A DNA stretch of 20,223 bases from a virus, in IMG/VR virus record IMGVR_UViG_3300042691_023080, positions 1 to 20,223 of that record; one strand, written 5' to 3'. The notes beneath the pieces are model-generated. The model was not told where the DNA came from and did no database searches. It saw only the letters and a program-made list of their open reading frames with translations. This document shows positions 48-4,857 of this stretch, one piece after another (within the stretch, counting starts at the first letter, position 1; each line of letters starts with the position of its first letter). The translations under genes and the position numbers were made by a program.

Positions 48-70
48 ATACTTTAATTAATTGTAAATAT
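1..70. repeat. Left terminal inverted repeat, 70 bp
   Basis: The first 70 bases are the exact reverse complement of the last 70 bases. Identity stops at base 71 (G here, A on the other side), inside the start codon of the terminase gene. The repeat holds a partial reading frame that closes with TAG at 45-47 and an A/T-rich stretch up to the terminase ATG. It may be a true genome end, one arm of a larger inverted repeat, or an assembly boundary. Confidence 0.97.
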
Positions 71-1919
71 GACGAAAATAAAACTAGCAGACGAACTTGA
101 ATCCAGACTACGCAAGGTCTTTCTCCCAGACGAAGGGGGTGACGTTGTTGACTGGCTTGAGAAGAATATTCGCCAGATTCCTTTCTCCCCAATGCCTGCT
201 GGCTTCAGAGCAAAGGAAACGCCGTGGCTCATAGAGCCACTCCGTGCTTGTGCCGACCCAGAGAAGCGACTGGTTCAGATTATAGCACCGATTCAGTCTG
301 GCAAGTCTCTCCTTGCAGAGATGTTGTCTTGCTTTATTATTGCCAGACAGCCAGCCCCGACTCTTTATCTTAACGACACGAACGACAACGCCGCAGACTG
401 GATGAAAACCCGTCTCCGTGTCCTGTGGGAAAACTGCCCCCCTGTTATGGCAAAACTCCCGAAGGGGGAAGAGAAGTCAAAGGGCGATACCGTTCAAACG
501 AATGAAATGACCTTCTGGTGTCTCGGTGCGTTCAATGAAAAGAATCTTCAGAGACGCTCGATTAGATGGCTACTTGCTGACGAAACTTGGCTATACCCTA
601 AAGGCCACTTGGCAGAATCCTCTGCCCGTGTAACCTCATTCGGCTGGCTTGGCAAGAGAATCTTCATGTCTCAAGGTGGGTTTGCTGGAGACGAGACGGA
701 AGAGTTTTGGGCTACTACTGATAAGCGTGTTTGGTCTTTTGCGTGTCCGCTATGCAATTGCAGACAAGAATGGAAATGGACGCAGGTAAGAATACCAGAA
801 GACTGCATGATATACGAGGGTGAGTACGACTTCAATAAGATAAGAAACGAGACGACTTACGAGTGTGAAGGTTGTAATCATAGATTCAAAGACAGCAGAG
901 CGTCTCGTGATGAAATGAACGCAAGAGGGTTTTATGCCGTCACAAACCCAAATGCGGCTGACTATAATGCTGGATATACTTGGAATTGCCTTGCCGCACG
1001 CTCTTGGGGGACTGCCGCAGAGTCTTATATGCGTGCAAAGGTGATGCTTGACTACAATGGTGACGCAGGCCCAATGAGAATTTTTAAACAGAAGCAGTTG
1101 GCGGAGTTTTGGACTGATGAGCCAGATTCATTCGATGCTGTTCAATCAATTGGTGAATACAAGCAGGGTGAAGAATGGGAAGATGAGGCACTCATAAACC
1201 CGAAAACAAAAAAGATACACAGCGACAAGACGCTAGCCGACCAGATACCAACAAGATTTATGACTGTTGACGTTCAGAGAAACGGCTTTTACTGCTTGAT
1301 TAGAGGATGGGCGGAAGGCGGCGACAGCCGCCTCCGCAGTTGGAAGTTTGTATCTACATGGCTAGACGTGTTGGCTTTCCAGAAACTACATAAGGTACAT
1401 TCGGCACTTGTTTACGTTGACTGCGGAGACCAGTTTGATGACGTTATAAGACAGTGTGGCATAAACAAATGGACGGCACTAAGAGGCGACCAGAGAGGCG
1501 AGTTTCCGTGGAGAATACAGATGGCTGGCGGATGGAAGACTGTTAATAAAACATACGCACCTGCAAGACTGGTTAACGCTGGTACTGGAGTAGTCAGAGT
1601 TCACCACTTCTCTAACTTGGCTCTCAAGGACCAGTTAGCAAGACTGAGAAAGAGTGGAAAGCATATGTGCCCACACGATTGCGGACAGGACTACATCGAC
1701 CAGATGGAATCAGAGGCTAGAGTCATGGGAAACAATGGGAGACCAGAGTGGAGACGCATCGGCAAGAGAGCCAACCACTTGTGGGACTGTGAAGTTATGC
1801 AACTTGTTGCGGCGGCGGCATTTGGATTCCTTGGAGCCCCAAAGATTGTTGAAGACGTTAAGGAGGAAGAAGGAGAAAATGATGAAGCGGAAGAAGCAGA
1901 GGGCAAAAGGGCAAATTAA
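69..1919 (+). CDS. terL: Terminase large subunit, lambda GpA type
   Basis: This is the ATP-driven motor that translocates phage DNA through the portal into the prohead and cuts it. The 616-residue length fits the GpA family. The ATPase half has a Walker A-like loop APIQSGKS (73-80) and a Walker B-like LLADE (168-172). A probable zinc ribbon follows (C226/C229 and C266/C269). The C-terminal RNase H-like nuclease shows acidic candidates D401 (in MTVDVQ), D451 (VYVDCG) and D573 (NHLWDCE). The C-terminus ends in an acidic tail of about 20 residues. The ATG at 69 has no Shine-Dalgarno sequence and straddles the inner edge of the terminal repeat. No small terminase gene is present, although lambda-type enzymes normally need one. 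Confidence 0.96.
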   Translation: MTKIKLADELESRLRKVFLPDEGGDVVDWLEKNIRQIPFSPMPAGFRAKETPWLIEPLRACADPEKRLVQIIAPIQSGKSLLAEMLSCFIIARQPAPTLYLNDTNDNAADWMKTRLRVLWENCPPVMAKLPKGEEKSKGDTVQTNEMTFWCLGAFNEKNLQRRSIRWLLADETWLYPKGHLAESSARVTSFGWLGKRIFMSQGGFAGDETEEFWATTDKRVWSFACPLCNCRQEWKWTQVRIPEDCMIYEGEYDFNKIRNETTYECEGCNHRFKDSRASRDEMNARGFYAVTNPNAADYNAGYTWNCLAARSWGTAAESYMRAKVMLDYNGDAGPMRIFKQKQLAEFWTDEPDSFDAVQSIGEYKQGEEWEDEALINPKTKKIHSDKTLADQIPTRFMTVDVQRNGFYCLIRGWAEGGDSRLRSWKFVSTWLDVLAFQKLHKVHSALVYVDCGDQFDDVIRQCGINKWTALRGDQRGEFPWRIQMAGGWKTVNKTYAPARLVNAGTGVVRVHHFSNLALKDQLARLRKSGKHMCPHDCGQDYIDQMESEARVMGNNGRPEWRRIGKRANHLWDCEVMQLVAAAAFGFLGAPKIVEDVKEEEGENDEAEEAEGKRAN

Positions 1920-1962
1920 GAACACTTGCATACTGCGTAAACATTCACATGATGCATCTCAT

Positions 1963-1992
1963 CAGTATATAACTATACAGTATATACTATTA
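1963..1992. repeat. Two 15-bp A/T-rich tandem repeats before the RNA gene
   Basis: CAGTATATA occurs at 1963 and again at 1978, each followed by A/C-T-A-T/T-A sequence, giving a 15-bp period. It lies about 20 bases before the first helix of the structured RNA and contains -10-like hexamers (for example TATACT 1983-1988). I see no good -35 at the usual distance, so it may be a promoter/operator element, but this is inference. An 8-bp palindrome GATGCATC lies just upstream at 1951-1958. Confidence 0.35.
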
Positions 1993-2007
1993 ACTGTTCT
2001 TTAACTT

Positions 2008-2264
2008 TTGGCGGCGAGTGGTAAGCATACACAGAGATGGTATGCAAGGTTGCATAGTTACCCCACTATGAGGGTGTCTCTTCTTCGAAGAGACCCCCAG
2101 TATTTCCTCGATTGATTCCACTCGTCGCCAATCTACTTGTGTGGCTGATGATGATACGGTACGGCGAAAGCACCGTTAACCTCCGTTGGTGGGTCATAAC
2201 CATCTTCCAGCACACATCCCTTTAAAAACATAAGGCAGGCTAAAAAGCCTGCCTTATTTGTTTA
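2008..2264 (+). ncRNA. Candidate two-domain structured RNA, family not recognised
   Basis: The 357 bases between the terminase gene and the converging small ORF hold no convincing gene but fold strongly. Domain 1 is closed by a 14-bp helix (2008-2021 with 2118-2131, one G-U pair). It encloses hairpins GCATAC/GTATGC (2025-2030/2040-2045), CATAGT/ACTATG (2053-2058/2065-2070) and GTCTCTTC/GAAGAGAC (2076-2083/2087-2094), the last extended by GGG/CCC. Domain 2 is closed by TGTGTG-g-CTG/CAGCACACA (2138-2147/2208-2216) and then GATG/CATC. It holds a hairpin with a GAAA tetraloop and a 3-nt bulge (2156-2176) and a second hairpin (2176-2199). A strong terminator ends it. The helices were found by eye. 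I could not match a known class; the size and position do not fit tRNA, tmRNA, SRP RNA or a packaging RNA. The 5' end is uncertain. Confidence 0.6.
2230..2264. terminator. Bidirectional Rho-independent terminator
   Basis: A perfect 12-bp stem (2230-2241 with 2246-2257, AAGGCAGGCT core) with an AAAA loop is followed by TTTGTTTA on the + strand and by a T-rich run on the - strand. It separates the converging transcription units: terminase/RNA from the left and RtcB plus the 65-aa ORF from the right. Confidence 0.9.
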
Positions 2265-2501: not shown

Positions 2502-3725
2502 TTAACTTCCTTCGCTTCTGTCGTTCTCGGTTTTTCCACCCATTCTGACGATTCTTGGCTGGAATTCGGCCACCTTACACACGAGGGATGACTGGCTAGC
2601 CATTACTGTGTCAATGCTCTTATAAGCCTGCGGAGACTCATCTATCCCTGCACCGAGAAGTTCAACCTTGTTATCTTCTAAGACCTTATTTCTTTGTTCA
2701 ACAGTTATTTTTTTGATGGCTTGTGAGCGAGACATAGCACGGCCAGAGCCGTGCGATGCAGAAGACAAAGACTCATCGTCACCAGTACCGATTACAACGT
2801 AAGCCTTTGTAGCCATTGATGATGGAATAATTCCAATCGTTCCCATGCCTGCTGGCGTAGCACCTTTTCTATGGACATAGTAAGGCTTGCCGTCTAACTC
2901 TTCAATCCAAGCGTAGTTGTGGTGGTTTGCTATCGTTTGAGTCACTTCATCAGACATTCCGACATAACTAATAACAGACTTGTGGATACATTCATGGTTT
3001 GCGGCAGAATAATCTCCACACAGTTGCATCAAGTCGTAATATAACTTCCCTTCTTCGGTATCCATAGATAGCCACGAAAGTTCGTTAAGAGGTTCTGGAA
3101 GAGGATTTATCTTTGATGCCAACTTAGTAAAATAATTAGCAATCGTATAACCCAATGCTCTGCTACCACTATGAGACATTAAGGCTATGCATCTTGATGA
3201 AGACTTATTAATGACCTTATAAATCTCGCTTGTCGTATTGTATTCACCCCATTCAACAAAGTGATTACCTCCACCAGATGTTCCCAGTTGCTTCCACGCT
3301 CTATCTTTCAGAGATTGACCATTTAAATCAATAGACAGTTTATCAACAAGAGCCCATCTTGGGTCATCCATTATTGGATGTTCATTCGGTTTTTGCGGGC
3401 ATGAATACCCACCGAAATAAGTTCTTTCCCTTAACGACTGTCTCAGTAAGCCATATGTTGCCTCACCCTTTGCATCAAAAACATTTGACGAAGTGTTTAC
3501 AATTACAGTCATCATCATTCGGCATCCAATATCAACGCCAACGGCATAAGGTATTACGGCATTCTCAACAGCACACACCCCACCAATTGGCATACCGTAT
3601 CCTTGGTGTGCGTCTGGCATTAAGGCTCCCTTAACGACAACAGGCAAAGACATAACATTGTCCATCTGCTTGATAGCACCATCTTCGATGTTTTCTCTTC
3701 CGTATACTTGATATGCTCTTGACAT
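2502..3725 (-). CDS. rtcB: RtcB-type RNA ligase
   Basis: RtcB joins RNA ends carrying 2',3'-cyclic phosphate or 3'-phosphate to 5'-OH ends using GTP and Mn2+, as in tRNA repair. The family signatures are all visible and in order: MPDAHQG (36-42), VGVDIGC with D65 and the metal-binding C68, GGGNHFVEWGE, LMSHSGSR, NHHNY, and the guanylylation motif SHGSGRAMSR with its histidine. I chose the ATG at 3725 (407 aa, close to the 408 aa of the E. coli enzyme) rather than the frame's first ATG at 3767. It begins MSRAYQVYG and sits 6 bases after a good promoter -10, whereas the extra 14 residues overlap that promoter. It runs against the neighbouring virion genes and is not part of a normal head module, so it looks like acquired cargo. 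Confidence 0.95.
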   Translation of the reverse strand: MSRAYQVYGRENIEDGAIKQMDNVMSLPVVVKGALMPDAHQGYGMPIGGVCAVENAVIPYAVGVDIGCRMMMTVIVNTSSNVFDAKGEATYGLLRQSLRERTYFGGYSCPQKPNEHPIMDDPRWALVDKLSIDLNGQSLKDRAWKQLGTSGGGNHFVEWGEYNTTSEIYKVINKSSSRCIALMSHSGSRALGYTIANYFTKLASKINPLPEPLNELSWLSMDTEEGKLYYDLMQLCGDYSAANHECIHKSVISYVGMSDEVTQTIANHHNYAWIEELDGKPYYVHRKGATPAGMGTIGIIPSSMATKAYVVIGTGDDESLSSASHGSGRAMSRSQAIKKITVEQRNKVLEDNKVELLGAGIDESPQAYKSIDTVMASQSSLVCKVAEFQPRIVRMGGKTENDRSEGS

Positions 3726-3731
3726 TGGATA

Positions 3732-3761
3732 TATATATGCTATAACCCCCCCTGCTGTCAA
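3732..3761 (-). promoter_or_regulatory. Promoter for rtcB with a 7-G spacer tract
   Basis: On the - strand TTGACA (3761-3756) is followed by an 18-base spacer and TATATA (3737-3732), a near-consensus sigma70-type pair. The rtcB ATG begins only 6 bases after this -10, so the transcript would be leaderless or nearly so. The spacer contains seven consecutive G (3752-3746), whose length could vary by slippage. Confidence 0.6.
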
Positions 3762-3790
3762 GCACATTCAAGTAGACATTACAAAAATAT

Positions 3791-4642
3791 ATGGGACGCT
3801 CTTACGAAATGAAAGAAGGCCGAAGGGTTATAATACCGACCACACGGCAGGCCGAAGCGATGGCACGTAAGCAAGCGGAAGCGAATATGATAAAAGACTC
3901 TAAGGGAAGAACTGGCATGACTTCCAAGATATCTGATATCGCTGGGTTAGAAGATTATATCAAGAGCCTTGGTCTATCAAAAAAAGCACAAAAAGACATA
4001 CTTGATGCGGCAAAGGTAACAGATGATTTTGTCCAATTAAACACTCTTAGAATCCTTAAGGCACTAAGAGACGGAGATACTAAAAACGAAATGGAAGATA
4101 AAAAGTCTAGATTTAACCTTGATGCCTTAATTAAAAAATGGGCAAACTCAGAAGTCGAGATGATAGCCGCTTATGACAAAAATAACAAATTTCTTGGTTA
4201 TAATACCATCGCAGATAAGGGTAAGGTTTACATGGTAACTACTGAAGGGCAATTGATTGGAGGCACAACTATCCATTCTCATCCATCCGAAGAAGGAAGG
4301 TTCTTTGGTGGAAGTTTCTCACATGGTGATTGGACGACCTTCAGAGATAATGGAGAGAGGAAAATGGTTGTCACATCAAAAGAGGGTACTTATATCCTTG
4401 AGCGAGACTCAAACTTTAAATTAACAAACACAGATATAAATAAAGTATATGTTAGAACTACTGTAAAAACCGTTCTATCAACACAGAAGTTTACAGACCC
4501 AAAGCCGACAAAATTTGGGTGTACTATGGCTGAACTTGCCGTATGGAGAGACCTTCATGCTGGAAATAAGGAACTAGCCGCAATGGCTGGGATTAAGTAC
4601 ACTTTTATACCAAATAAAGGGTTTTCTGGAATTGACAAATAA
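3791..4642 (+). CDS. Putative JAMM/JAB-like metalloprotease, phage-associated
   Basis: This 283-aa protein has a charged, helical N-terminal half (about 1-115) and a C-terminal domain with the JAMM zinc signature H162-S-H164-P followed by S177-x-x-D180. E121 or E123, about 40 residues upstream, is placed to be the catalytic glutamate. JAMM domains remove ubiquitin-like or other C-terminal peptide tags, and relatives are common in phage head and tail genes. The spacing between HxHP and SxxD is longer than in RadC-type domains, so activity is not assured. It is the first + strand gene after the rtcB insert, is divergent from rtcB across 65 bases, and leads into the connector/portal genes. Substrate unknown. 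Confidence 0.7.
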   Translation: MGRSYEMKEGRRVIIPTTRQAEAMARKQAEANMIKDSKGRTGMTSKISDIAGLEDYIKSLGLSKKAQKDILDAAKVTDDFVQLNTLRILKALRDGDTKNEMEDKKSRFNLDALIKKWANSEVEMIAAYDKNNKFLGYNTIADKGKVYMVTTEGQLIGGTTIHSHPSEEGRFFGGSFSHGDWTTFRDNGERKMVVTSKEGTYILERDSNFKLTNTDINKVYVRTTVKTVLSTQKFTDPKPTKFGCTMAELAVWRDLHAGNKELAAMAGIKYTFIPNKGFSGIDK

Positions 4643-4833: not shown

Positions 4834-4857
4834 CAAGTTGACACTGAGCCACTCTTA

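Follow-up and report, generated by a model that had tools for sequence, protein, structure and literature searches.

Gene context and features of the locus

The window, a viral DNA stretch of 20,223 nucleotides, contains the following features between its terminase gene and its head genes.

69–1919, plus strand: terminase large subunit (gpA family; PF05876 and PF20454), the upstream neighbour of the RNA
1926–1953, plus strand: promoter pattern TTGCAT-N16-CATGAT (weak sigma70-like −35/−10), upstream of domain 1
1964–1988, plus strand: hairpin between the predicted transcription start and boxA (fold z −2.4 in the window)
1996–2006, plus strand: boxA-like sequence GTTCTTTAACT, 10 of 11 positions fitting GYTCTTTAANA
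2008–2131, plus strand: domain 1, with P1 (2008–2021/2118–2131), P2 (2025–2045), P3 (2053–2070) and P4 (2072–2097); covariation found
2099–2115, plus strand: conserved single strand AGTATTTCCTCGATTGA, preceding the 3' side of P1
2132–2138, plus strand: interdomain linker of the TTCACTTT type; all 10 loci have (T)NACTTT/CCCTTT here
2139–2215, plus strand: domain 2, with P1 (2139–2147/2208–2215, bulged G2143), P2 (2150–2153/2201–2204), the P3 GAAA hairpin (2156–2176) and P4 (2179–2194)
2230–2257, plus strand: 12-bp terminator, which has the terminator form on the minus strand too, for the convergent rtcB unit
2502–3767, minus strand: RtcB RNA ligase (PF01139, E 2.4e-79), a convergent neighbour; the two-way terminator is common to RtcB and the RNA
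3719–3746, plus strand: head operon promoter TTGACA-N16-TATAAC, separate from the RNA

The portal is lambda-like and the terminase is of the lambda gpA kind. The head operon promoter was read directly; the consensus scan, which requires a T at the last −10 position, skipped it. The motif precedes the same gene in three relatives (L003, L005 and L007). A conserved ORF at 3791–4642 carries an HSHPS...SHGDW (JAMM/MPN-like) motif and gave no Pfam match at 1e-3. In 14 of 14 relatives checked, GTTGACA was strictly placed about 20–25 nt before the start codon of the small head protein (about 4835–4842 in the window, about 9440 in L016 and about 7960 in L011), with no obvious −10 at normal spacing.

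Relatives were collected as 31 viral contigs through the upstream terminase, and the set was extended by terminase and small-head-protein scans and by a DNA pattern. In group A (L003–L010), domain 1 and domain 2 are followed by the terminator, whose stem sequence is identical in these relatives, and then, in most members, by reversed genes including rtcB. L005 is without RtcB at this place, and in L006–L010 further reversed ORFs, up to several kb, separate the RNA from the head genes; the DNA block conserved by blastn in L006–L010 runs from boxA to the terminator. In group B (L011–L014, L032 and L156), the two domains stand just before the JAMM-like ORF without a terminator, except that L011 has domain 2 alone. 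No terminator was found in L011–L013 and L156, where a head-region gene closely follows domain 2; in L011, L012 and L013 the JAMM-like ORF follows 25–40 nt after the RNA. Group C (L015–L031, L033 and others), with a terminase about 70% identical, mostly has a 2–3 kb gap without conserved ORFs. In four more distant terminase relatives the gap is only about 150–175 bases (computed from match positions), so the RNA cargo appears to be clade-specific.

By terminase and portal, the nearest cultivated relative is Verrucomicrobia phage P8625 (24–26% identity), and terminase relatives occur in Verrucomicrobiota genomes. The host of this phage is therefore probably a member of the Verrucomicrobiota, as judged from these gene relationships.

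Structure and conservation of the two RNA modules

The minimum free energy of 2008–2264 was −101.2 kcal/mol, versus −67.7 ± 5.0 kcal/mol in 200 dinucleotide shuffles (z −6.74), and 0 of the 200 shuffles were as good. No ORF of at least 60 residues fills this region.

For domain 1, ten sequences were compared. In P1 and P2, 99% of the cells were paired and 13 of 20 pairs were changed on both sides. The number of doubly changed cells was 33 versus 9 in shuffles; none of 500 shuffles was as good, and controls with slid pairing gave 1–5. The arms of P3 were complementary in 10 of 10 loci despite their differing sequences and lengths. Within 2099–2115, TATT and CTCGATT were invariant and the remainder nearly so in these 10 loci, whose helices covary. 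When an antisense partner for the conserved strand TATTTCCTCGATTGA was sought within the window, only a site with 3 mismatches was found, which is at chance level.

For domain 2, 21 of 22 pairs were doubly changed among 23 sequences (0 of 500 shuffles), with 93 doubly changed cells versus 32 in shuffles and 12–21 in slid controls; the alignment was fitted to its own model, which inflates this count. When the 11 seed sequences were folded singly, the closing helix and the hairpins mostly appeared as in the model. The RNAfold minimum-energy structure computed from the window sequence by itself departs to some extent, in domain 2, from the pairs backed by relatives.

These compensatory changes indicate that selection acts on both domains as RNA. 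They bear directly on the idea that the locus is a DNA site, such as cos/pac or an attachment site, and that its inverted repeats merely resemble RNA. The adjoining terminase would suit such a site, but pairing is kept by compensatory changes in at least 7 helices and conservation is highest in the predicted single strands, which makes a DNA site highly improbable.

The sequence-only reading had proposed a functional structured RNA of no named family, to be checked against Rfam and by covariation in homologues, and our results bear this out through the fold energy (z −6.7), the lack of an Rfam family and the abundant compensatory changes in domain 1 and domain 2. Of the elements that it described, the 14-bp closing helix, three hairpins enclosed by it, a further domain with a GAAA tetraloop and the terminator were all recovered at the positions listed above, and the pairs of domain 2 are those backed by relatives. 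Its boundaries and overall architecture needed revision. The terminator on the right side stands, but the unit begins upstream of 2008, with boxA and the promoter pattern. Both domains exist, but they do not form a single RNA fold; they are separable modules, because L011 and the group C loci have domain 2 but no domain 1. The promoter, the boxA, this modularity and the tie to larger RNA arrays were absent from that reading.

At the gathering cut-off, cmscan with Rfam 15 gave no match across the whole window. At relaxed thresholds the best match was STnc400 (22.5 of 80 bits), confined to the 3' part and the terminator, and the weak matches touched the terminator or single hairpins only. The ROOL and GOLLD covariance models had no match in the window at either gathering or relaxed thresholds, and blastn against 50,697 phage records gave no hit. 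A tRNA or tmRNA identity was rejected: ARAGORN reported none in the window, the T-arm is absent from both domains, and the combination of acceptor, TTCRANY T-arm and CCA was not found. A hammerhead ribozyme, suggested by CUGAUGA and GAAA in domain 2, was also rejected, since the core varies to CCGAAGA, the GAAA is a tetraloop and Rfam gave no match. In conclusion, it is nearly certain that a two-module phage RNA gene absent from Rfam exists here with the structure described.

RNA arrays and tRNA-like RNAs in related phages

In group C, the gap between the terminase and the head gene holds untranslated RNA domains over 2–3 kb, real tRNAs, and oversized tRNA-like RNAs of 126–221 nt. The arrays consist of many closed-helix modules joined by linkers of the TTCACTTT type. 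Three of them, of 2–2.7 kb, have no conserved ORFs, run from the terminase to the small head protein and have NNACTTT linkers.

L016, 6792–9465: array
L027, 6759–9239: array
L020, 6759–8831: array

Across 12 group C arrays, ACTTT occurred 91 times on the RNA strand versus 40 times on the opposite strand, and GTTCTTT boxA-like sites recur along the arrays.

The domain 1 model found only 10 loci, all in groups A and B, and detected none in group C arrays. The domain 2 covariance model (R1) was built from 11 sequences, and matches outside the seed group were taken up to E 0.7; all but one of these were on the RNA strand within the gap between terminase and head gene. Up to three copies of domain 2 were found in one group C array, the extra copies being the weakest matches. 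Exact-pattern scans of all viral contigs placed domain 2 solely at the terminase-head locus of this clade, and a search of 388 Verrucomicrobiota genomes with the domain 2 model, under strict filters and with no positive control, gave no match. Judged from these matches, domain 2 is a mobile or shared module, which also closes the 2–3 kb RNA arrays of more distant relatives.

This distribution bears on two other explanations. One is a packaging RNA like phi29 pRNA that works with the adjoining terminase and portal, for which the length and long closing helix of domain 1 would be suitable. Such a partner would be required in all relatives with the motor, but domain 1 occurs in only 10 group A and B loci, and L011 and all group C loci are without it although their terminases are 70–81% identical. 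The terminase belongs to the lambda gpA kind and is paired with a lambda-like portal, a type of motor for which no use of RNA is known. A phi29-type pRNA was thus rejected, and a packaging role is very improbable. The other is a degenerate relic of an RNA array without a remaining role. The window group does have only two modules, as against 2–3 kb in group C, but the pairs and junction bases are under strong purifying selection in sequences that share about 76–79% identity, which leaves little room for a relic.

A search of 14 arrays for the geometry of acceptor, D-arm and T-arm gave 13 candidates on the RNA strand, of which three have the length of a normal tRNA and one measures 85 nt. The same search gave no candidate on the opposite strand, in shuffles or in 112 kb of coding flanks. 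The oversized RNAs have an acceptor, a D-arm, a T-arm and often CCA, and a large structured insert takes the place of the anticodon arm or enlarges it. In one type, the acceptor pairs change yet stay paired. They were found at the following places.

L047, 9223–9348: oversized tRNA-like RNA
L053, 8822–8947: oversized tRNA-like RNA
L057, 9141–9266: oversized tRNA-like RNA
L105, 178–303: oversized tRNA-like RNA
L054, 8611–8740: oversized tRNA-like RNA
L051, 8433–8653: oversized tRNA-like RNA
L052, 3344–3495: oversized tRNA-like RNA
L059, 8636–8845: oversized tRNA-like RNA
L112, 3221–3430: oversized tRNA-like RNA

ARAGORN and Rfam did not list these RNAs in group C arrays. The ROOL and GOLLD models had no match in the arrays, and our literature searches returned no description of such arrays or oversized tRNA-like RNAs in phages. 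We tentatively suggest that this clade may carry a new kind of stable-RNA operon between the terminase and the head genes, made up of a promoter with boxA in the manner of rRNA operons, closed-helix modules, tRNAs and insert-bearing tRNA-like RNAs. The window RNA could be its two-module form, with a terminator of its own and an RtcB neighbour. RNAs of this kind may commandeer or protect some part of translation or tRNA metabolism in the host.

Transcription signals, proposed role and comparison with known systems

The pattern TTG[AC]NY-N16-YAT[GCA][AG]T (also written TTGNNN-N16-YATNNT) precedes domain 1 in all 10 loci, versus 0.02 of 10 expected from mononucleotide shuffles, a contrast that overstates independence because the pattern was derived from these same related loci. 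A generic consensus scan did not report 1926–1953. Hairpins of differing sequence stand at the same place before boxA in several relatives and are weaker or absent in others (e.g. L005 and L006).

The published boxA consensus is GYTCTTTAANA (PMC5725501), and GCTCTTTAAAA of L010 matches it fully. In 8 of 10 loci GYTCTTT precedes the closing helix by 11–16 nt, versus 0.05 of 10 expected. The order of promoter, boxA-like sequence and structured RNA is that of a boxA (NusB/NusE) leader. BoxA is absent in L012 and degenerate in L013, both of which keep domain 1 and domain 2, so it is not essential. In 16S leaders of Verrucomicrobiota (L164–L181), GATCTTTTAGAGAACA or GTTCTTTCGAAG was observed at the expected place of boxA, and these may be the boxA forms of the phylum. 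The rRNA leaders of the phylum are mixed, with GATCTTT in some genomes and GTTCTTT in others, and the boxA match in the window is therefore only suggestive. It suggests an antitermination like that of rRNA, which would guard the untranslated transcript.

What the transcript serves depends largely on its downstream boundary. In group A, the RNA is cut off from the head operon by the terminator and the separate promoter (3719–3746). Because these two elements isolate the RNA, we regard it as self-contained and favour action in trans over a leader function. The locus would then be an autonomous phage gene whose product is a structured non-coding RNA of about 300 nt, trans-acting and stable, which we consider the probable reading of these sequence features. 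The presence of up to three domain 2 copies in one array is easier to reconcile with a trans-acting module than with a lone cis switch, although the additional copies score lowest.

The main rival is a processive antitermination leader acting in cis (of the HK022 put or rrn type), in which boxA and the folded RNA ride with the polymerase past terminators into the head operon. It would account for boxA and its preceding hairpin, for the boxA-like sites repeated along group C arrays, and for the position of the RNA in L011–L013 and group C, where head-region genes follow closely and no terminator intervenes. However, the window group has a terminator, reversed genes after the RNA and its own head operon promoter, and two loci keep both domains with boxA absent or degenerate. 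We therefore consider a cis leader rather unlikely, although a cis role may apply in L011–L013 and L156.

The transcript start in group B points to another rival. In L012 and L013, the promoter pattern is so near that the closing helix of domain 1 begins at about +1 without an intact boxA, and in L011 it is equally near, the closing helix of domain 2 beginning about at the transcript start. With the JAMM-like ORF 25–40 nt later in these three loci, the RNA might be a 5' untranslated element through which the mRNA of the next gene is stabilised or regulated, its stem at the transcript end guarding against decay. The terminator of group A and the independent promoter of the JAMM-like gene argue against this, as do the domain 2 copies that group C arrays contain at a long distance from gene starts, and a 5' element is accordingly an unlikely explanation.

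For the trans-acting RNA, the following course may be proposed. Host RNA polymerase would start at about 1960. The hairpin and boxA would recruit NusB/NusE, and the untranslated transcript would be spared early Rho termination as in rRNA operons. Domain 1 and domain 2 would each fold on its own and be closed by a long helix between its 5' and 3' ends, leaving the UUCACUUU linkers single stranded, perhaps as cleavage sites. The stable product would act in trans, most likely by binding an RNA-binding or translation-related protein of the host or the phage; protein binding is the most likely because the conserved bases (GGUAA, AGGUU and GUAUUUCCUCGAUUGA) sit in junctions and single strands rather than in helices.

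The locus adds a new RNA family with strong covariation support, whose modules are small enough for probing and structure determination. Standard annotation leaves 2–3 kb blank in related phages, where the tRNA finder misses the oversized tRNA-like RNAs.

The phi29 pRNA resembles domain 1 in its length of about 120 nt, its long closing helix and its position beside packaging genes, but close relatives that have the same terminase lack domain 1. The put RNAs of HK022 are about 70 nt long, have two stem-loops and act in cis without boxA. The window RNA shares with them a phage RNA folded soon after the promoter, but differs in having a boxA, and the window group differs further in its terminator and in a head promoter distinct from that of the RNA. 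The nearest known kind is ROOL and GOLLD, large ornate RNAs of phages and prophages (PMC12286853), which are likewise phage-encoded, heavily structured and of unknown function, and which lie near tRNA islands, as the group C arrays do. They are single RNAs of several hundred nt, whereas the window RNA has about 250 nt in two separate modules and no Rfam match. rRNA leaders have the order boxB-boxA and direct antitermination by Nus factors (PMC5725501). The locus resembles an rRNA operon leader in its promoter, hairpin, boxA and structured untranslated RNA, and the group C unit also in its tRNAs, but the modules of the window RNA are not rRNA and their Nus dependence is putative. A boxA in a phage unit of untranslated RNA could show that Nus-factor antitermination serves stable RNAs of phages as it serves rRNA.
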